Assembly (NCBI GenBank): GCA_945900945.1
Contig: CAMDKL010000033.1
Location: forward strand, 1-42,780
Reading direction: 5' to 3'
Origin: Pirellula staleyi DSM 6068
GTDB lineage: Bacteria > Planctomycetota > Planctomycetia > Pirellulales > Pirellulaceae
Length of the DNA stretch: 42,780 nucleotides
How positions within the stretch are numbered: the first letter of the stretch is position 1; each line of letters starts with the position of its first letter. Shown piece after piece: positions 13,122 to 32,180 of this stretch. The position numbers were made by a program, and so were the translations under genes. The notes under the pieces were generated by a model. The model had not been told where the DNA came from. It ran no database searches and saw only the letters and a program-made list of their open reading frames with translations.

Positions 13122-13154
13122 GGGCCCGGGGCTAGCGCCCACCGGTTCACGAAA
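13122..13154 (+). repeat. Dispersed palindromic repeat, copy 1
   Basis: This stretch matches 32 bases of the 41-bp repeat at 20528-20568 with one mismatch (ACCGG for GCCGG), including the palindromic core GGGGCTAGCGCCC and the tail GGTTCACGAAA. It lies in the spacer 13068-13213 between two minus-strand genes. Confidence 0.85.
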
Positions 13155-13213: not shown

Positions 13214-14566
13214 TCATGGCAGAACCAGGGCAGCGCCAGTCACCACATTGGCTTGCATCAATGCTCCGCGAAGACTGATTGGCACAGGTCCAACCGTCCA
13301 AGGTGCGCAGGATCCTGGTCGATAATGGCCGAGTGAGTATTGGCACTCGTTCATTGGATGGATACCCATTTTGTATGGCAATACGATTACGTCGCCAAAG
13401 AAATGTGCGGTAGAGATAATTGGTTGTGCGAGTGGCCCCCACTCATGTCCATAGCGTTCCAACTGGACGTCTTCGAAATAGAGCGGTTTGTGACAGGCTC
13501 CACTTGCCTTCCACGTCACAGTCGTGTCGACAAAATCGCGGCGAGGAAAGGAACGATCGTCGATGGAACACGTTACTGGCAAGCCCCATTTCTCACTCAC
13601 ATACACTTGATCTGCATCGCTCAGTTTGTTCAACAAATACGACTTTTGTGTTCCATCTGCAAGCTCGATAAAGACGGATCCAAGCCTTAAGTCCACGAGT
13701 TTCCCTTCCGCGACCAATTGCCCATCGAAGGATAGCCAAGGTCGAATCGGAGCGCTCGCTACAAATCCCATTTTTGTATTTTTATTTTCCAAAACACCCT
13801 CGACAAACCTCGGCGATGAATCAATACGAATCCTGGTGATGTCGGAATCCTGTGCATTCAGCCGAACCGAGTCGCAGTCACCCGAGCGTCTTTCTAATCG
13901 CAGAGGAGGCGACGGGGCAGGGTCATTGTCCGAAGAAGATGGGCCGTTGCTCTCCTGATTGGGAGTGCTAGGTCCAGAAAATGGGCTCTGTCGGATTTGC
14001 TCAGGTTCCAAAAGCGACCTGCCCGGCTTGCTTGGTAGGATGCTTTTTGGCTCACTAGGTTTCAAGTCTTTGGCAGGTGGAAGGTCTTGTGGTAGTAGGT
14101 TGAGAGGCGCGCCCGCTTGAGGCTCTTGAAATCTTGCTACCGATACGTTTTCCTTCATCGCAGAGCGATCAACCCATACTCCGCTCGTCCGTCTTTCTTG
14201 AGCTGGTGCCACCACCGAAGCTTCATTGTGTGAGGCCAACTGAACATGCGAAAATGGTTGGGCGATATCGACCGACTGGAAACGGCCTTCGTTTCGACTG
14301 ACTAGCGGCAGGGCTTGGGCGTAACTCTGTTCTTCACGTGAGGACCGCAACGAATTGTTTGGGGTTCCCCACCGCAGTACTTCTCCGTTTTGCTGTCCTT
14401 CGCTTCGACGCAGGCTATTTGGACGAGCAACGTCATGCGGAGTATTCGAAACTTCAGCAATCGGCTTCGGAAAAGGCTGTGGCGACCAACCGGTTGGCGC
14501 TTGAGCAAAGCATTGTGATGCGGCCACCAATCCGACGAGAGCACTTCCTAGTATGGCCGTAACCAT
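13214..14566 (-). CDS. Secreted protein with SHD1-like domain
   Basis: The frame is open back into guaB, but the ATG at 14566 starts a clear signal peptide (MVTAILGSALVGLVAASQCF, then AQA), so I place the start there, giving 450 residues. A Pro/Ser-rich low-complexity region (about 20-260) is followed by an SHD1-like domain (PWLSFDGQLVAEGKLVDLRL to KLSDADQVYVSEKWG, about 275-325). SHD1 is widespread in planctomycete surface proteins. The C-terminal part has CHKPLYFEDVQLERYGHEWG, STAHFFGDVIVLPYKMG and LGHYRPGSCAPW, a conserved planctomycete module of unknown function with paired cysteines. It is probably exported. The gene follows guaB by 67 bases on the same strand and may be co-transcribed. 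Function is not known. Confidence 0.75.
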   Translation of the reverse strand: MVTAILGSALVGLVAASQCFAQAPTGWSPQPFPKPIAEVSNTPHDVARPNSLRRSEGQQNGEVLRWGTPNNSLRSSREEQSYAQALPLVSRNEGRFQSVDIAQPFSHVQLASHNEASVVAPAQERRTSGVWVDRSAMKENVSVARFQEPQAGAPLNLLPQDLPPAKDLKPSEPKSILPSKPGRSLLEPEQIRQSPFSGPSTPNQESNGPSSSDNDPAPSPPLRLERRSGDCDSVRLNAQDSDITRIRIDSSPRFVEGVLENKNTKMGFVASAPIRPWLSFDGQLVAEGKLVDLRLGSVFIELADGTQKSYLLNKLSDADQVYVSEKWGLPVTCSIDDRSFPRRDFVDTTVTWKASGACHKPLYFEDVQLERYGHEWGPLAQPIISTAHFFGDVIVLPYKMGIHPMNECQYSLGHYRPGSCAPWTVGPVPISLRGALMQANVVTGAALVLP

Positions 14567-16442: not shown

Positions 16443-19400
16443 GTGACAGTACGTAAAACCTTTCAACGCCCCAGCCGTCAAGTCCTCCGTATGGCTTTGT
16501 TAGCCGTCTCTCCGTGGTTTGCCGGAAGCCACATCCTTGCTCAAGGCCCCGTGCCGCAGCCAAACCTCGCACGGCCAACGACTCCTCGCGATGGTCTTAA
16601 TGCGGTTGCCAAACCTTCACGACAAGCCAATCCGCAAAACTCGGCTCAGCAACAGTTTACGTTGCCGCCGCCCCCACAAGCTCAGAATTCACTACCCGCT
16701 GCCACAACGACCTCACCCTTAAACGTGGATGCTCGGATCCAAGTCTACGACGTTCCGTTGGAATATGTGGGTGAGGTTGGTGCAAGAATCCAGGCTCAAT
16801 TTGGTACTGATAAACGTGTTCGTGTTACCAATGAGCCCAATACGGGTAGGCTCATGGTTTTGGCTCCCGGTGGAACACAAACCCAAATAGCCCAAGTTGT
16901 CGAAGCGGTTCGTCGTCAGGTTGGCAGCCTCAACATGGACCCCCGTGGCAACGTCATTCCCAGCACGATCCAGCAAAACCAATACAAGCTTCAACGTATT
17001 TCCTGGCGAGAGCTCGAGGACGCCGTCGGACGTTTGGCAGGCTCAAAACTCACCACATCGACAAGCAACAATGGCGAGCTAGCACAGCTAAAGTTGGTAT
17101 CGAAGGACTCTGTACAAGAAGTAATGCAAGTCGATCGCCGAAACAATGAAGTGAGGCTTCAAGGGACCCCGGCGAGTGTTATGGGATGGACCCAGGTCAT
17201 AACGGCTATCGATATCGGTCAAGCCGATCCAGCACGCCCTACGCAAATTATTCCGATCAACCCTGCGAGTCCGGAACGTATCGAACGCGCTATCAAACTA
17301 ATCCAACTCGCAACCTATCAGCAGCCCGGCCAGCCTCCCCTAGAAGACGAAGCAACCACGACGGCCCAGGTTCGGCCAGGCACAGATGGGAATGATCGTG
17401 CAACCATCGTTGCTTCGCCAGACGCAATCAGCTCAGGGAGTGGTCTCATCGGTGATGTCGATATCTCCTTTGTGCCTGAAATGGGATTGGTGATCATTAA
17501 GGGAAGCAAACGGGATGTACAACGTGTGCAAGAAGTGATCGACCAGATCAAAAAGCAGAGCACCGAAACGCAACCGGAAATCGACATTGTCATTCTAAAG
17601 CATGTCAATGGGCAATCTCTCGAGGTCATCCTCAAGGCTCTCAATACGGAAGTGTTTTCGCCACGCCAAGGTCAGATCAGCATCACCGCATTGGGACAGC
17701 CGAATGCATTGCTGCTGATCGGTCGTAGAGAAGCCATGTCGGGACTTAAAGAAGTGATCGAAAAACTGGATACGCCCATCGATCCAAACAGTCAATTGAA
17801 GGTTTTTAAATTAGTTAATTCGTCGGCAGTCGACGCCCAAGCGCTCATCACCAATTTCTTTGGAGCCCCGGCGGCAGCCAATCAGGCCGCCAATGCGGCA
17901 ACAACGACCGGTCTGACCGTTCGCGTTAAGGCAGTTGCTGACTATCGCACTAACTCGTTGATCGTCCAAGCGTCTCCCCGCGACCAAGCTGAAGTTGCTC
18001 GCCTCATACTGGAAATCGATTCGGACTCGAGTACCGCAGAGAGCGAAATAAAAATCTTTCCGATCAAGTATGCGCTCGCATCGGATTTGCAAACCATTCT
18101 GAGTAATGCTATCAGCGGAACGCAAGCGGCTGTGACTGGGGCAAACGGCCAGCAACAGCAGCAGCAACAACAGCAACAGCAGCAAGGTGGCGCAGCTGGA
18201 ACATCCACTGCTAAAGTGCCGAGCAGCCGTCTCAATGTCGGTGTCAACTCAGCCTTGTTGACAGGCGTGGTTGTCAACAACAGCCCAACCATCAATGCCC
18301 TGATCGTGCGTGCTCCCACCAAGAGCATGCCTCTCATCGAGGCGCTCATCAAGCAATTGGATATCCCATCGGGCGTCGAAGCTCGCATCAAGGTCTTTGA
18401 AGTCCAAAACGGCGACGCGGCCACGCTGGCAACAGCGTTGCAACAAGCATTCGGTTTGCCAACAACCCAGAGCAACACCCAAGCGAATCAAGCCAACAAT
18501 GGCCTCGGCGGATTATTCGCTCAAAATCTTGCAGCGCTATCGGGTGGTGCTGAAAGCTCGCTCGTTCCATTACGCATCGCAACGGAAACACGAACGAACT
18601 CGATTATTGTGTCCGGTTCGCAATCGGATCTCGAAGTCATCGAAGTATTGCTCTTGCGATTGGACGAAGACAATTCGAAACAAAGAATGACGGAAGTCAT
18701 TTGGCTGCGAAACAGCTCTGCTACCGATGTGGCCACTGCAATCACGAATTTAATTAGCCAGCAAAGGCAAAACCTGCAAGCAATTACAGCACCGGTAGGG
18801 CAAGCTGGTGGGGCACAGGGTGCGATTTACAGTGTGATCGAGCGAACAGACAGAGAAGTTTATGTCGTCGCCGAACCTAACACAAACAGCGTCATCATCA
18901 GCGCAATGCCGCGCTATTGGCCGATTATTCGAAAGGTTATCGAAAATCTTGATCGGCAACAGCCGATGATCGCGGTTGAAATCTTAATCGCGGAAGTAAC
19001 GCTCGAAGATAATTTTGATTTGGGAACGGAATTTGGTCTTCAAGATTCGTTGGTATTCGACCGCAACAGTGCCAGTGGTGGAACACTTACCAGCCCCGGG
19101 TTCAATGTCAATCCTGTTCCTCTCGCGATAACGACGCCCATTGCTCAACAGCGACGCATTCAAAACGTTGCCGGACAAGGTCAATCGGGGTTTGCACTAG
19201 GTCGTACTAACGCCTCCCTCGGATATGGTGGACTGGTTTTGGCGGCTGGTAGCGAATCGGTCAATATGCTCTTCCGAGCCTTGCAGGATGCAAACCGCAT
19301 TCAAATATTGTCTAGACCTTCTCTACTAACCATCGATAACAATATCGCAAACGTTCAAGTTGGACAACAAGTGCCTAGAATTTCTGCCTCTACCCTGAGC

Positions 19401-20273
19401 AATACCGGAACACAACAAAGCATAGGGGACGTACCGGTCGGTTTGCTCATGCAGATCCAACCGCGTACCAATCAAGACGGGTTGATCAATATGATCGTGG
19501 CGGTACAAAAGTCCTTCTTAGGTAAAATAGCCGATGGCGTGCCCATCGGTGTTGATTCCCTAGGCAATCCGATTCTTTCCCCCATTATCAACATCACACA
19601 GGCACAAACTCGAGTTACCGCCTACGACGGACAAACCGTCATCTTGTCAGGTCTGATCACCAAGAGTCGAACCACTCGATCGAAACGAATTCCGTGGTTA
19701 GCTGACATTCCATTGGCGGGTGTCCTGTTCCGATTCGATAGTCAGGCCGAGATACGTACCGAGTTGCTTGTTGTGATGACACCGCGTGTCATCAACTACA
19801 ACAACGATGAGAAACTTCAGACGATCAAACAAGTAGAGTCGTCTCGCATGAGCTGGTGCATGGCGGATGTCATGAACATCTACGGCGACGTTGGGCTTTC
19901 GCCTGGCAATGGTCTTTGGGGACCTGCTGCTGCACCGGTGATCTATCCAGATGAACAGCCGACAGTCGATTTCGAAAACGGACGTGGACAAAAAAGTATG
20001 ATCCCTGTGGAGCCCGAGCAAATGAATTTAGGTCCAGGAATTGAAATGCTGGACAGCAGTTCAATCAATACTCCGGTTCGTTCGAGCAAAAATGGTGCAC
20101 GAACATTTCTGGATTCGTCAACCAACGGTGCGGGAAAGCCATCGGTGAATTCTGCTTTACCTATTCAGAATTCGTCGTATCAGCAGAATATGCAACAGGG
20201 TGCGTATGGGATTGCACCGGCATCGTACCAACCCGCTTCGCAACCAACAGCGCGCATTGCAAATGGAAGGTAA
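16443..20273 (+). CDS. Giant secretin (GspD/PilQ-like outer-membrane channel protein)
   Basis: At 1276 residues this is much longer than a typical secretin. A signal peptide (about 1-34, ending SHILAQG) precedes a Pro/Gln-rich segment, then a series of secretin-N-type repeats, recognised by recurring units such as DIVILKHVNGQSLEVILKAL, IKIFPIKYALASDLQTIL, IKVFEVQNGDAATLATALQQ and VIWLRNSSATDVATAI, each followed by RTNSIIVSGS-like strands. A pure 12-Gln tract occupies residues 570-581. The C-terminal secretin domain (about 840-1130) contains IQILSRPSLLTIDNNIANVQ, VGLLMQIQPR, AYDGQTVILSGLI and TELLVVMTPRVI. The tail of about 140 residues is unstructured. Start is GTG 16443 with AAGGGAA upstream. 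Pore formation in the outer membrane follows from the family; the transported substrate is unknown. No GspE/F-type ATPase or platform gene is in the window. Confidence 0.92.
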   Translation: MTVRKTFQRPSRQVLRMALLAVSPWFAGSHILAQGPVPQPNLARPTTPRDGLNAVAKPSRQANPQNSAQQQFTLPPPPQAQNSLPAATTTSPLNVDARIQVYDVPLEYVGEVGARIQAQFGTDKRVRVTNEPNTGRLMVLAPGGTQTQIAQVVEAVRRQVGSLNMDPRGNVIPSTIQQNQYKLQRISWRELEDAVGRLAGSKLTTSTSNNGELAQLKLVSKDSVQEVMQVDRRNNEVRLQGTPASVMGWTQVITAIDIGQADPARPTQIIPINPASPERIERAIKLIQLATYQQPGQPPLEDEATTTAQVRPGTDGNDRATIVASPDAISSGSGLIGDVDISFVPEMGLVIIKGSKRDVQRVQEVIDQIKKQSTETQPEIDIVILKHVNGQSLEVILKALNTEVFSPRQGQISITALGQPNALLLIGRREAMSGLKEVIEKLDTPIDPNSQLKVFKLVNSSAVDAQALITNFFGAPAAANQAANAATTTGLTVRVKAVADYRTNSLIVQASPRDQAEVARLILEIDSDSSTAESEIKIFPIKYALASDLQTILSNAISGTQAAVTGANGQQQQQQQQQQQQGGAAGTSTAKVPSSRLNVGVNSALLTGVVVNNSPTINALIVRAPTKSMPLIEALIKQLDIPSGVEARIKVFEVQNGDAATLATALQQAFGLPTTQSNTQANQANNGLGGLFAQNLAALSGGAESSLVPLRIATETRTNSIIVSGSQSDLEVIEVLLLRLDEDNSKQRMTEVIWLRNSSATDVATAITNLISQQRQNLQAITAPVGQAGGAQGAIYSVIERTDREVYVVAEPNTNSVIISAMPRYWPIIRKVIENLDRQQPMIAVEILIAEVTLEDNFDLGTEFGLQDSLVFDRNSASGGTLTSPGFNVNPVPLAITTPIAQQRRIQNVAGQGQSGFALGRTNASLGYGGLVLAAGSESVNMLFRALQDANRIQILSRPSLLTIDNNIANVQVGQQVPRISASTLSNTGTQQSIGDVPVGLLMQIQPRTNQDGLINMIVAVQKSFLGKIADGVPIGVDSLGNPILSPIINITQAQTRVTAYDGQTVILSGLITKSRTTRSKRIPWLADIPLAGVLFRFDSQAEIRTELLVVMTPRVINYNNDEKLQTIKQVESSRMSWCMADVMNIYGDVGLSPGNGLWGPAAAPVIYPDEQPTVDFENGRGQKSMIPVEPEQMNLGPGIEMLDSSSINTPVRSSKNGARTFLDSSTNGAGKPSVNSALPIQNSSYQQNMQQGAYGIAPASYQPASQPTARIANGR
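18150..18185 (+). repeat. CAG/CAA poly-glutamine tract
   Basis: Twelve consecutive glutamine codons (mixed CAG and CAA) lie within the secretin gene between two N-domain repeats, immediately followed by Gly-Gly-Ala-Ala-Gly. Mixed codons suggest a protein-level linker rather than a recent slippage expansion. Confidence 0.9.
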
Positions 20274-20311
20274 CGTTTGGTAGCGGCACGGCGCATGTCG
20301 TCCGGTGCTAC

Positions 20312-20352
20312 CTTTGCGATTTCGTGAACCGGCGGGCGCTAGCCCCGGGCCT
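20312..20352 (-). repeat. 41-bp dispersed repeat, copy 2 (left arm of inverted pair)
   Basis: This is the exact reverse complement of 20528-20568 over 41 bases. It contains the core GGGCGCTAGCCCCGGG. With its partner it forms a 257-base inverted structure in the spacer between the secretin and lipoprotein genes. Confidence 0.93.
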
Positions 20353-20409
20353 GAATTCGTCAGAGAAAACAAGTTTAACCCAGCCGGTGTATTTGTTGAC
20401 CATCCGCAA

Positions 20410-20457
20410 GGCGCTAGCCCACGGTACTGGTCGCAATGACAACCGTCGGCTAGCGCC
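20410..20457 (+). repeat. Inner hairpin with GGCGCTAGCC arms
   Basis: Arms 20410-20425 and 20442-20457 are reverse complements over 16 bases with a single mismatch, around a 16-base loop. The GGCGCTAGCC core is shared with the flanking 41-bp repeats, so this is probably a shorter, diverged pair of the same family nested inside them. Confidence 0.88.
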
Positions 20458-20527
20458 CCATGGCACTCACTTTAAACAATTGTCGTTGTCCTCGGGCTTC
20501 GTATTAGGCGAATTCGCCAGCAAATTT

Positions 20528-20568
20528 AGGCCCGGGGCTAGCGCCCGCCGGTTCACGAAATCGCAAAG
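20528..20568 (+). repeat. 41-bp dispersed repeat, copy 3 (right arm of inverted pair)
   Basis: Perfect reverse complement of 20312-20352; it also matches 13122-13154 with one mismatch over 32 bases. A 12-bp perfect palindrome, GGCGAATTCGCC, lies just before it at 20507-20518. It ends 49 bases before the lipoprotein start codon. Confidence 0.93.
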
Positions 20569-20617
20569 TGTCATCTCAAATTCAACATCGGCATTTTACC
20601 AACCATCGGCAGAAATC

Positions 20618-21703
20618 ATGAACATCATCTCAATGAGCCCTTACAAAAAATACTTGCTCGGATTCACCGCAATTGCAATCGCCATGTCTACGATTGGCTG
20701 CGAAACTTTGACAACCGATTCCTCCGCGAGCAAGAAAAAGAAAAAGGACTCGAGCTGGTTTTCTTTTAAGAAAAAAGAATATCAAAATCCGCAAAGTATG
20801 ACGGTGACTTGGTCGGACGATATTTTAACTCTGCCTGGCAAAGCAGTAACTCGCGGCTTCGGCGGACGATTTTACTTTTACAACGAAAAGACCCAAGCGA
20901 TCCCAGTCGATGGGGATTTGGTCGTCTACGGGTTCGACGACACAAACAATCAACAAACAAGCGAGGACCTGAGCCAAGCAACAAAGTGTTTCCGATTTAC
21001 CGCCGAGCAGCTTAAAACCCACTTCACCGAGGGAGAGCTTGGGGGATCCTACAGTGTTTGGATTCCCTGGGATCAAGCCTACGGCGCGCCAAAGAAAATC
21101 ATGCTCATTCCGACTTTTGTAACCAAAGATGGACGAGTGATTCGTGGCGCCTCTACAAACTTAAATCTTCCTGGCACTACCAAGAACGATCCCATTGAAG
21201 CGACCATTCAACAAGCCTCAGCTACCACAACAAAGTTAATGCCAAATCCAATGCTAGACCCTCGTCATTCTAGCACACCAAGTACGACGAGCGGATTGCG
21301 AACGACAACCATTCAAGTTCCTTCCAATTCATTGATGCGTCAACAAAACTTTCCGCCATTGCTTTCCAATTTGACTGAAGCGCAGAATCAACAACTTTCA
21401 AATGCTTTCAGCCCGCAACCGAACCCATCAGGGACGAATGCTACAGTCCAGATGCCTACTATGGCGGCAACTCAGCCGCAATCGGCCTTTGCGCAATTTC
21501 CGCAAACAGCACCCTCGAACTCGAATGCGCTCAGTTCGATTCCTGCGACTCAATCCGGAATGGCTACGAAGAATGTTAACGGCTGGGCTTTGCCTGAATT
21601 CGCTCCAGCGGATTGGTCCGGACTGTCACCTCGTTCCGCACCAAGTCAATTCCCGGCTCCAACTTCACAAGTCGCTCAACCATCCTCTTTTCCGATTCGG
21701 TAG
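20618..21703 (+). CDS. Predicted lipoprotein, secretin-linked, unknown function
   Basis: The open frame extends to 20324 through the repeats, but the ATG at 20618 begins a lipoprotein signal (KKYLLGFTAIAIAMSTIGC, with the modified Cys at about residue 28), so I start there; 361 residues. After a Lys/Ser-rich linker comes a conserved-looking domain (about 52-190) with MTVTWSDDILTLPG, RGFGGRFYFYNEKTQAIPVD, GDLVVYGFDD, GGSYSVWIPWDQAYGAPKKI and MLIPTFVTKDGRVIRGAST. The rest is Pro/Gln/Ser/Thr-rich. I cannot name the family. Following the secretin gene on the same strand suggests a pilotin or accessory role, which is inference. Its last 128 bases overlap the convergent BON gene. Confidence 0.75.
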   Translation: MNIISMSPYKKYLLGFTAIAIAMSTIGCETLTTDSSASKKKKKDSSWFSFKKKEYQNPQSMTVTWSDDILTLPGKAVTRGFGGRFYFYNEKTQAIPVDGDLVVYGFDDTNNQQTSEDLSQATKCFRFTAEQLKTHFTEGELGGSYSVWIPWDQAYGAPKKIMLIPTFVTKDGRVIRGASTNLNLPGTTKNDPIEATIQQASATTTKLMPNPMLDPRHSSTPSTTSGLRTTTIQVPSNSLMRQQNFPPLLSNLTEAQNQQLSNAFSPQPNPSGTNATVQMPTMAATQPQSAFAQFPQTAPSNSNALSSIPATQSGMATKNVNGWALPEFAPADWSGLSPRSAPSQFPAPTSQVAQPSSFPIR

Positions 21704-22418
21704 CAACTTCACCGCGGAGCACGATCGTCTCTCCCTCGACGGACGAAATCACGCTTCGCAGTTTTTTTGGAAGTGGAATTCGGGATAAGCGACTTTGAGC
21801 GTTGGTTGCAATGGCTGCTGGGCTCGCGCGCTCGAACTCGATATCTGGTCTCACGATCGGTCGAATCAATTTCTTAGCCTGAGCAGAGGCGTTTCCTGCA
21901 CCGCCTCCACCGAGGCCTCCCAATCCACCGATTCCGCCAAGGCCACCAAATCGTCCACCACCAAGACCGCCACCTAACCCTGCTCCACCGATTGCGCTGC
22001 CACCAAGTCCACCCGCTGCTCCCGTTCCACCGGCTGTATTACTAAATGCAGTCGTGCCAAACGCACTACCGGAAGTGGTTTGTCCTGCAAGCGTAGGTGC
22101 ACCTGATACGCTTTGGCCGCTGGAAAAAGCCGCTGATGGATTGAGTGTGGTAAGCTCGAGCCTGGATTGACCCGTTACTCCCAGCCCGCCGAATGAACCT
22201 GGCAACTTGCTTGCGGCGGCCGCTCCGCCAACCGCTCCTCCCGCCGCTCCGCCAAATCCTGTCGCTCCACCTGTCGTGCCACCAAGCCCGCCCGTCGCGC
22301 CGCCAAGCCCGCCCGTCGAACCGCCAAGTCCGGTGAGTTGTGCATGCACAGCTTCCAGCGAGAAAACCAAGGTCAATGCGATTCCGAAAGATGCGTTGCT
22401 TAAAAGTGAGAATTTCAT
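21576..22418 (-). CDS. Exported Gly-rich protein with C-terminal BON domain
   Basis: From the ATG at 22418 the 280-residue product has a signal peptide (MKFSLLSNASFGIALTLVFS, then LEAVHAQ) and a very Gly/Ala/Thr-rich region with repeated GGLGG, GGATGG and GGTTGG units. A BON-type domain follows at the C-terminus (IPLPKKLRSVISSVEGETIV then LRGEVATESEKRMVERLVKL and VRNEVTVRT). BON domains bind membranes or lipids in exported proteins. The longer frame to 22511 adds a hydrophobic stretch unlike a signal peptide. The 3' end overlaps the lipoprotein gene by 128 bases, so the BON sequence and the lipoprotein tail share DNA in opposite orientation. The pairing with a secretin locus hints at a shared envelope structure. 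Confidence 0.78.
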   Translation of the reverse strand: MKFSLLSNASFGIALTLVFSLEAVHAQLTGLGGSTGGLGGATGGLGGTTGGATGFGGAAGGAVGGAAAASKLPGSFGGLGVTGQSRLELTTLNPSAAFSSGQSVSGAPTLAGQTTSGSAFGTTAFSNTAGGTGAAGGLGGSAIGGAGLGGGLGGGRFGGLGGIGGLGGLGGGGAGNASAQAKKLIRPIVRPDIEFERASPAAIATNAQSRLSRIPLPKKLRSVISSVEGETIVLRGEVATESEKRMVERLVKLEPGIDLVRNEVTVRTNPLERIQAKPSR

Positions 22419-22759
22419 GTTTGGCCCAATAAACTGGTTAAACATTCCGGTCGGTGAAAACGGACTGGTTCGATTATCTACGAAGAGTGCGATAATAATC
22501 AATGCAAGCAATTGCTTTTTTGTGTCGATTTTCTCGCATTCCCGGTTAATATCGAATCGACCTCATGGGAGGCTGGACACGAAGCTGCCGAATGACACCT
22601 ACAATGCATGCACTGGTTGTTCGCGGAATCCGGGCTGTGAGAGACTTTCCCATTGTAGGATCGCGGAGCCTCTCCCATTGGCTAGTCCTAAAACTAGACG
22701 TTGACGGACGACTAGGGCATATTCCCGATTAAAAATCGGGGTTGCAACAAAGAGTAGCT

Positions 22760-22796
22760 CGGCACTCCGTGCCGAGAAAAACGGCACGGAGTGCCG
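22760..22796. repeat. Perfect 15-bp inverted repeat, 7-base loop
   Basis: CGGCACTCCGTGCCG at 22760-22774 is the exact reverse complement of 22782-22796, around the loop AGAAAAA. Each arm is itself a near-palindrome (CGGCAC / GTGCCG around TCC). It is a very stable structure if transcribed. Confidence 0.9.
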
Positions 22797-22838
22797 TTCT
22801 ACACTGGTAACTCCAGGGGGTAATTGATGATACAGCGT

Positions 22839-22858
22839 AACGATCGCGGAGCGATCGG
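22839..22858. repeat. 20-bp palindromic repeat, copy A
   Basis: AACGATCGCGGAGCGATCGG, with inverted arms CGATCGC and GCGATCG around GGA (sharing bases), also occurs without change at 32155-32174, so it is a dispersed element. Confidence 0.85.
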
Positions 22859-22894
22859 CCACATTGCCGCATTTTTTGAGTTATCATTGCACCT

Positions 22895-32154: not shown

Positions 32155-32174
32155 AACGATCGCGGAGCGATCGG
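32155..32174. repeat. 20-bp palindromic repeat, copy B
   Basis: Identical over 20 bases to 22839-22858 and followed by the same C. It lies in the short spacer (32047-32180) between the FAD oxidoreductase and cytochrome genes, just past the stop of the former, so it might also act as a termination hairpin. Confidence 0.85.
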
Positions 32175-32180
32175 CGGCTA

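Follow-up and report, generated by a model that had tools for sequence, protein, structure and literature searches.

The perfect inverted repeat at positions 20312-20568 of the window (the whole stretch of DNA that we analysed, 42,780 nucleotides) is very probably a chance, oppositely oriented pair of copies from an intergenic MITE family that is specific to this species. Alignment with the family showed that the right copy, as it now reads, abuts the palindromic unit of an inner hairpin and is truncated at its right end, and that the left copy is a reversed fragment devoid of the MITE left arm. Comparison of loci likewise showed, at the level of sequence, that the full MITE form abuts GGCTAACGCCC-type palindromes, as do autonomous IS4-family elements of relatives. 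A conspicuous sequence would in this way be explained as ordinary repeat biology, i.e., as a further member of an already known class of genome repeat and not as a novel switch, and a named mechanism (IS4-type ends and a palindromic target) could be given to part of the intergenic repeat load in a Pirellula-like genome.

A sequence check of the window revealed that 20312-20352 and 20528-20568 are perfect reverse complements (41/41), confirming both the coordinates and the sequence of the arms as described in an earlier reading of this DNA (the sequence-only reading), and that pairing of the arms reaches further, to 20312-20357 and 20523-20568 (46 bp, 98%, one mismatch). The hairpin that the same reading had placed between the arms and assigned to the same family was also recovered; 20410-20425 and 20442-20457 form a stem of 15 pairs with one mismatch and carry the GGCTAGCGCC core that is present in the arms. 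The RNA fold of 20274-20620 reached -170.8 kcal/mol versus -110.5 kcal/mol (SD 5.0) for shuffled sequences (z = -12), with none of 100 shuffles being equally stable, and GGCTAGCGCC at ≤1 mismatch occurred 6 times in the window versus a mean of 1.85 and a maximum of 5 in 100 shuffles. The fold and motif content of the structure are far beyond chance as sequence, and strong folding would be expected of any transcript from the secretin-lipoprotein spacer.

The left arm (20312..20357, minus strand) is a reversed fragment of an older family copy, comprising the core and the inner right flank and ending at AAAG; within it, the MITE left arm was not detectable (z = 0.0), and the right flank scored z = 4.3. 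A linker follows (20360..20409, unstranded) that by eye is like the sequence beside palindromes of other copies, e.g., L017. According to sequence and fold, the inner hairpin (20410..20457, unstranded) is a palindromic unit whose arms are GGCGCTAGCCC and GGCTAGCGCC, and its right arm (20448-20457) is, by the target consensus, the target-type sequence abutted by the MITE. The MITE itself, a truncated copy of the ~125-bp element (L248; 20459..20570, plus strand, from sequence and consensus alignment), begins with its left terminal repeat at 20459..20473 (plus strand), which reads CATGGCACTCACTTT here and AATGGCACTCACTTT in the family, and family alignment placed the 32-bp family core at 20528..20559 (plus strand), inside the right arm 20528-20568. 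Relative to the consensus, this copy matched at 67/70 positions of the left arm, had 0 mismatches in the core, and matched at 11/23 positions of the right part; its right terminal repeat stops after AAAGTG at 20570, the family form being AAAGTGAGTGCCATT. Because the right end is truncated, no target duplication can be read for this copy, and its insertion is not reconstructable because right end and target duplication are both missing. A third core copy of the window lies at 13122..13153 (plus strand), with 60 bp between it and the 3' end of a gene called on the minus strand (13214-14566).

Our searches of the host genome (G000; 6.47 Mb, a draft in 313 contigs) revealed a dispersed family. The 257-bp query gave at least 81 matches (40 of 198 candidates scored, with many places counted per strand). 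Exact GGGCTAGCGCC occurred 127 times in the host genome versus 9 times for the backwards-read control, and the 25-base core CCCGGGGCTAGCGCCCRCCGGTTCA at ≤1 mismatch occurred 119 times versus 0 for the backwards control, bearing out the assumption of the sequence-only reading that the arms belong to a single repeat family with further copies. No match to the 25-base core at ≤1 mismatch was found in 59 relatives, of which 26 share the genus of the host. Likewise, the 25-base core pattern had 0 matches in a viral contig collection and a 31-base core pattern had 0 matches in a genome contig collection from which the host or very near genomes are possibly excluded, and the family element is not named in the listed titles and abstract openings of papers on REPs, MITEs, and IS4 elements. 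The target palindrome GGCTARCGCCC ranged in abundance from 0 to 183 per genome across 60 genomes (G000 to G059); it greatly exceeded the backwards control in the host, G021, G023, G002, and G032 and fell short of it in many others; lineage-specific spread is therefore directly comparable, and the patchiness of this spread would be as expected of mobile repeats.

For the copies themselves, we examined 104 distinct sequences, later 106 (≤8 mismatches in 32), which are a subset of the genome's copies. Long copies extend from a left end AATGGCACTCACTTT to a right end AAAGTGAGTGCCATT over ~125 bp in total. A simple end match classed 31 of the 106 copies as long, with a few near-complete copies (e.g., L168, L170, and L180) standing among the short ones, and both ends were present at ≤4 mismatches in 28 of the 31; the three skipped include the window copy, the right end of which is missing. 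The flanks of many host copies resemble GGCTAACGCCC. When the left and right flanks of the 28 copies were compared over 10 bp, own flanks shared 6.50 matches versus 6.04 for flanks of other copies (permutation p = 0.0045, the best of 14 values obtained from 15 length/shift settings, which would fail strict correction); lengths of 11 and 12 bp in that register gave p = 0.0065 and 0.017, respectively, and the remaining settings gave 0.08 or more. Taken by itself, this flank similarity would be weak evidence for target duplication, in degenerate form, in the host copies.

A 133-nt family consensus matched in 10 of the 60 genomes, host included, and the matches reached the right end in G002, G003, G009, G015, G021, G023, and G032 and covered the core region only in G022 and G024. 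The 15-bp ends of the host MITE family bound elements of 1485-1491 bp in G032, G015, and G021. More specifically, the transposases of G032 and G015 (two proteins, 60% identical to each other) scored 150.2 and 145 bits against the NCBIfam model IS4_1 (NF033592; cut-off, 115), and both features by which we assigned IS4-family membership, i.e., D(60-110)D(100-150)E spacing and YREK, were found in these two proteins as D79D107E and as the signatures YWKRNDIEVDIRNIK and YFQRNHIEIDIRNIK. The element in G032 is present in eight near-identical copies. MITEs of 121-132 bp with the same ends and other middles were found at L077, L089, L090, L092, and L095 (in G009, G021, G002, and G003). With offsets of 0-2 bases permitted per end, exact target duplications of 10-11 bp were detected at 7 of 10 IS/MITE loci of relatives (L082, L091, L096, L077, L089, L090, and L092, among which L082 and L091 are alike in their flanks and possibly not independent); no exact duplication was detected at L084, L095, or L098, of which L098 is truncated by the locus boundary. 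Six of the seven duplications contain GGCTNNCGCC or its complement GGCGNNAGCC, the exception being L092 (GGGCGAGAGGC). These comparisons showed that, judged from its ends, the host family is at the family level a MITE sharing 15-bp terminal inverted repeats with autonomous IS4-family elements of relatives.

As a query, the G032 transposase had 0 matches in the 313-contig draft of the host; at E ≤ 0.001 it matched in 29 of the 60 genomes, in many cases distantly or with low identity. The sole DDE_Tnp_1 match in the host (24.4 bits; cut-off, 23) was without useful similarity to the G032-type transposase (best E value, 6.6) and lacked MITE-type ends. Several contigs of G023 terminate in short pieces of the IS4-type transposase, which suggests that the assembly is interrupted by copies; because these G023 matches are such short pieces at contig ends, draft assemblies can conceal IS elements of this type.

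We propose that an IS4-family transposase acting in trans placed the copies, and that this transposase may later have been lost from the host or be absent from its draft assembly. The core's own GGGCTAGCGCCC palindrome, which is of the target type, could favour clustering of copies. The pair would be without an evolved joint function. A secretin-to-lipoprotein transcript would carry a hairpin of ~46 bp, and a side effect on RNA stability or downstream expression may follow. In its table for subgroup IS4, PMC2266710 gives lengths of 1400-1650 bp, ends of the form -AATR--------WTW----, and duplications of 10-13 bp. The elements of the relatives are like those tabulated, with 1485-1491 bp between AATGG ends (N-AATG with TTT further in), duplications of 10-11 bp, YREK, and a DDE spacing of 79/107, their placement in the subgroup being made from ends and motifs rather than from a tree. 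Unlike the subgroup members, the window element is geneless and its transposase was not found in the host genome. A further parallel is ISRm22 of Sinorhizobium meliloti, described in PMC1525189 as an IS4-family element that inserts at the axis of extragenic palindromes/REPs. Both cases involve an IS4-family element that targets extragenic palindromes; PMC1525189 reports repeats of 6 bp for an IS that is complete, whereas here the duplications are 10-11 bp long and non-coding derivatives bear a target-type palindrome.

The gene context of the copies was counted with our own gene caller and a loosened overlap rule. Outside called genes were 103 of the 106 copies; in 68 of 103 cases the right-hand gene is oriented with its end toward the core (p = 0.0015), as is the left-hand gene in 39 of 100 (p = 0.035). 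Short copies between co-directional genes were found 37 times in one sense and 15 times in the opposite one, and long copies had no significant sense bias (19/30; p = 0.2). Among older copies, a position 3' of genes is preferred. Immediately before the core, 38 of 75 short copies have C and 17 have T, and in 31 long copies T (19) outnumbers C (11); the left arm of the window pair reads AATTC and the right arm AATTT. As a guide to the type of copy, this C/T state would be suggestive, not diagnostic.

To compare divergence, we placed 97 of the 106 copies in three groups and measured the core at 20 sites outside the 11-mer by which most copies had been found. Mean pairwise differences per site for left arm, right 25 nt, and core, in which the arm values contain alignment error and the core is favoured by most copies having been found via it, were 0.436, 0.328, and 0.063, respectively, in 34 older copies with a left arm; 0.136, 0.174, and 0.042 in 20 recent copies; and 0.639, 0.521, and 0.137 in 43 copies without a left arm. 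The left arm alone as query gave at least 36 matches (40 of 67 candidates scored), and 30 of these loci were fetched. A script alignment found the core at 0-3 mismatches in 26 of the 30, and the apparent core loss at L263 (identical to L041) proved to be an offset resulting from a deletion, the core there having 3 mismatches and making a 27th; L252, L266, and L267 were without an intact core. At the ten loci with arms of <90% identity, mean core mismatch was 0.148, the two lost cores being counted, versus 0.175 for the arms, and in the eight of these loci that keep the core, 11 of 248 core sites were mismatched. The mean difference between core and arms nearly vanishes once lost cores are counted, and the core of core-keeping copies is much better preserved than the element arms. 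A core that changes so slowly in the copies retaining it is not what a purely parasitic, decaying element would lead one to expect; the constancy of the core possibly reflects selection, core-limited conversion, or separate mobility of the core. Homogenisation of copies, which the sequence-only reading had raised for the arms, is possible in a form limited to the core, the core varying far less than the flanks in core-keeping copies.

The structure lies, as previously placed, between a secretin gene (16491..20273, plus strand; Pfam Secretin and Secretin_N) and a putative lipoprotein gene (20618..21703, plus strand; without a Pfam match, assigned from its N-terminus by eye, the start being backed by alignment of relatives). 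The secretin is 72% and 64% identical to those of Pirellula-like metagenome assemblies, and the two genes are adjacent and co-directional in relatives, where the spacer sequence differs. Among 24 loci compared, 21 were readable at both genes (all except L207, L219, and L228), one of which (L213) is the window itself. The spacer is 344 bp in the window versus about 0 to 250 bp at the 20 other loci, which include two near-identical spacers, maybe of one species (L209 and L226), and one lipoprotein aligned only from residue 47 (L232). None of these 20 spacers contained GGCTARCGCC or the core at better than 11 mismatches of 31, and because the core is absent from all of them, the insert is not a conserved control element of the gene pair. 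At L208, L214, and L218, the spacer holds other, unrelated-looking repeats. Within 20100-20800, 0 U-tract terminators (shuffle mean, 1.0) and no promoter-like site were found. An intrinsic terminator was rejected, the GC-rich hairpin being without a U-tract in this interval, and a known RNA family was rejected on the basis of Rfam 15, which gave 0 matches in the window at the gathering score and, for 20250-20620, a single match (E = 5.2) far below it.

The sequence-only reading had held that the perfect identity of the arms implies recent duplication. We consider it improbable that a local inverted duplication, or gene conversion from arm to arm, produced or maintains the perfect arms: a likeness of 41/41 is reached by 1.5% of copy pairs (81 of 5565; median difference, 6), as would suit a local event, but the exact 41-mer is carried by 12 of the 106 copies examined, ten of them outside the window locus, so perfect arm identity has no need of one. 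The identity moreover covers what is anyway the most conserved part of the family, only the right arm carries the MITE left arm and left terminal repeat, and the arms differ in their flanking contexts and in the base before the core. Dispersed identical copies together with these differing contexts most likely render a local duplication event unnecessary. The further copies of the 41-mer that the earlier reading had anticipated are thus present, and orientation pairs, which it had suggested checking, were also found: two close pairs occur among the 106 copies, both inverted (the window pair at 207 bp and L147 at 149 bp), and L055 and L056 show further, looser pairs of the 10-base core in inverted orientation. 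A simple simulation that scattered 119 copies over an assumed set of 5500 spacers, each 180 bp long, gave on average 0.94 inverted neighbours at ≤300 bp, with two or more in 26% of 400 runs; the pairing of two copies is itself within chance expectation. It is likewise improbable that the structure serves in the secretin-lipoprotein spacer as an attenuator or RNA processing site specific to that operon, in line with the earlier suggestion that it could block or process read-through RNA. Such a role would fit the very stable fold (z = -12) and the location between co-directional genes with an order conserved among relatives, but not the lack of a U-tract terminator in 20100-20800 or the absence of the core from 20/20 other readable spacers.

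That the core is instead a functional REP-like unit under selection (an RNA 3' end processing/stability or protein-binding site), with the MITE as only one of several carriers, we regard as somewhat unlikely. The low core divergence of the 34 older copies relative to their arms, the retention of the core at most loci selected by left arm, the location of nearly all copies outside called genes, and the sense bias of short copies all argue for it. Against it, the core is not in the 59 relatives, the advantage of core over arms at the ten diverged loci is slight with lost cores counted, long copies are without significant sense bias, no partner protein was found, and core-limited conversion or recombination would yield the same pattern. 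A related possibility, that the 32-bp core, a target-type palindrome in the MITE middle, is now a maintained genomic signal, with over 100 copies of which the older stand 3' of genes in a preferred sense and keep the core almost intact while their arms decay, is doubtful; if true, a parasite would have spread a new genome-wide 3' element within a single species. The conserved core in any case offers a test case for whether dispersed parasites become functional 3' elements. Very improbable is a REP or REPIN family mobilised by a RAYT. According to PMC3733652, REP elements are intergenic, of high copy number, mostly downstream of coding regions, and frequently in opposite-oriented pairs, and the present family is like them in its intergenic high-copy location, downstream bias, and inverted pairing, as well as in size and palindrome; the host genome also has 11 Y1_Tnp matches. 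However, no GTAG/CGTC or GTGG tag was seen by eye, the core flanks being GTTCACGAA and AGGCC, no RAYT association was found, and the family in its full form is a MITE bounded by ends of the IS4 type. Among eight Y1 loci fetched of the 11 matches, GGCTAGCGCC was present at one, L013, where the core is one-sided and ~500 bp from the Y1 gene, beyond another ORF. The TnpA-Y1 class 3 of Planctomycetes, for which PMC6006769 describes high-copy atypical hairpins in a genome, is alike in phylum and in high-copy hairpins; in contrast to that class, the class-3 Y motif was present in 0 of 6 host Y1 proteins read by eye, and the core was at 1 of 8 Y1 loci.

Small hairpins of varying sequence (GCACC..GGTGC, ATTGC..GCAAT, and TTCGC..GCGAA) were observed beside the core in short copies, e.g., L057, L119, L136, and L147. 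In 74 short copies, 31-nt windows adjoining the core had a mean fold z of -0.78 versus -0.47 for controls 100 nt away, and z was below -1.5 in 20 versus 13 of the 74 (Mann-Whitney p = 0.04, with shuffles that preserve single-base content only); this excess over controls is too weak to claim a covarying hairpin beside the core. The left flanks of L164 and L169 suggested a MITE nested in the core of another, which was not borne out, as the older copy does not resume in their right flanks. Elsewhere in the window, a GTG-started frame (20324-21703) is open through most of the insert in the phase of the lipoprotein, probably by chance, and the last 128 bp of the lipoprotein gene (21576-21703) are shared with a minus-strand gene for a BON-domain protein (21576-22511). 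Another strong hairpin, of the CGGCACTCCGTGCCG type, is located at 22751-22805, and an exact 21-bp repeat is present at 22839-22859 and 32155-32175.
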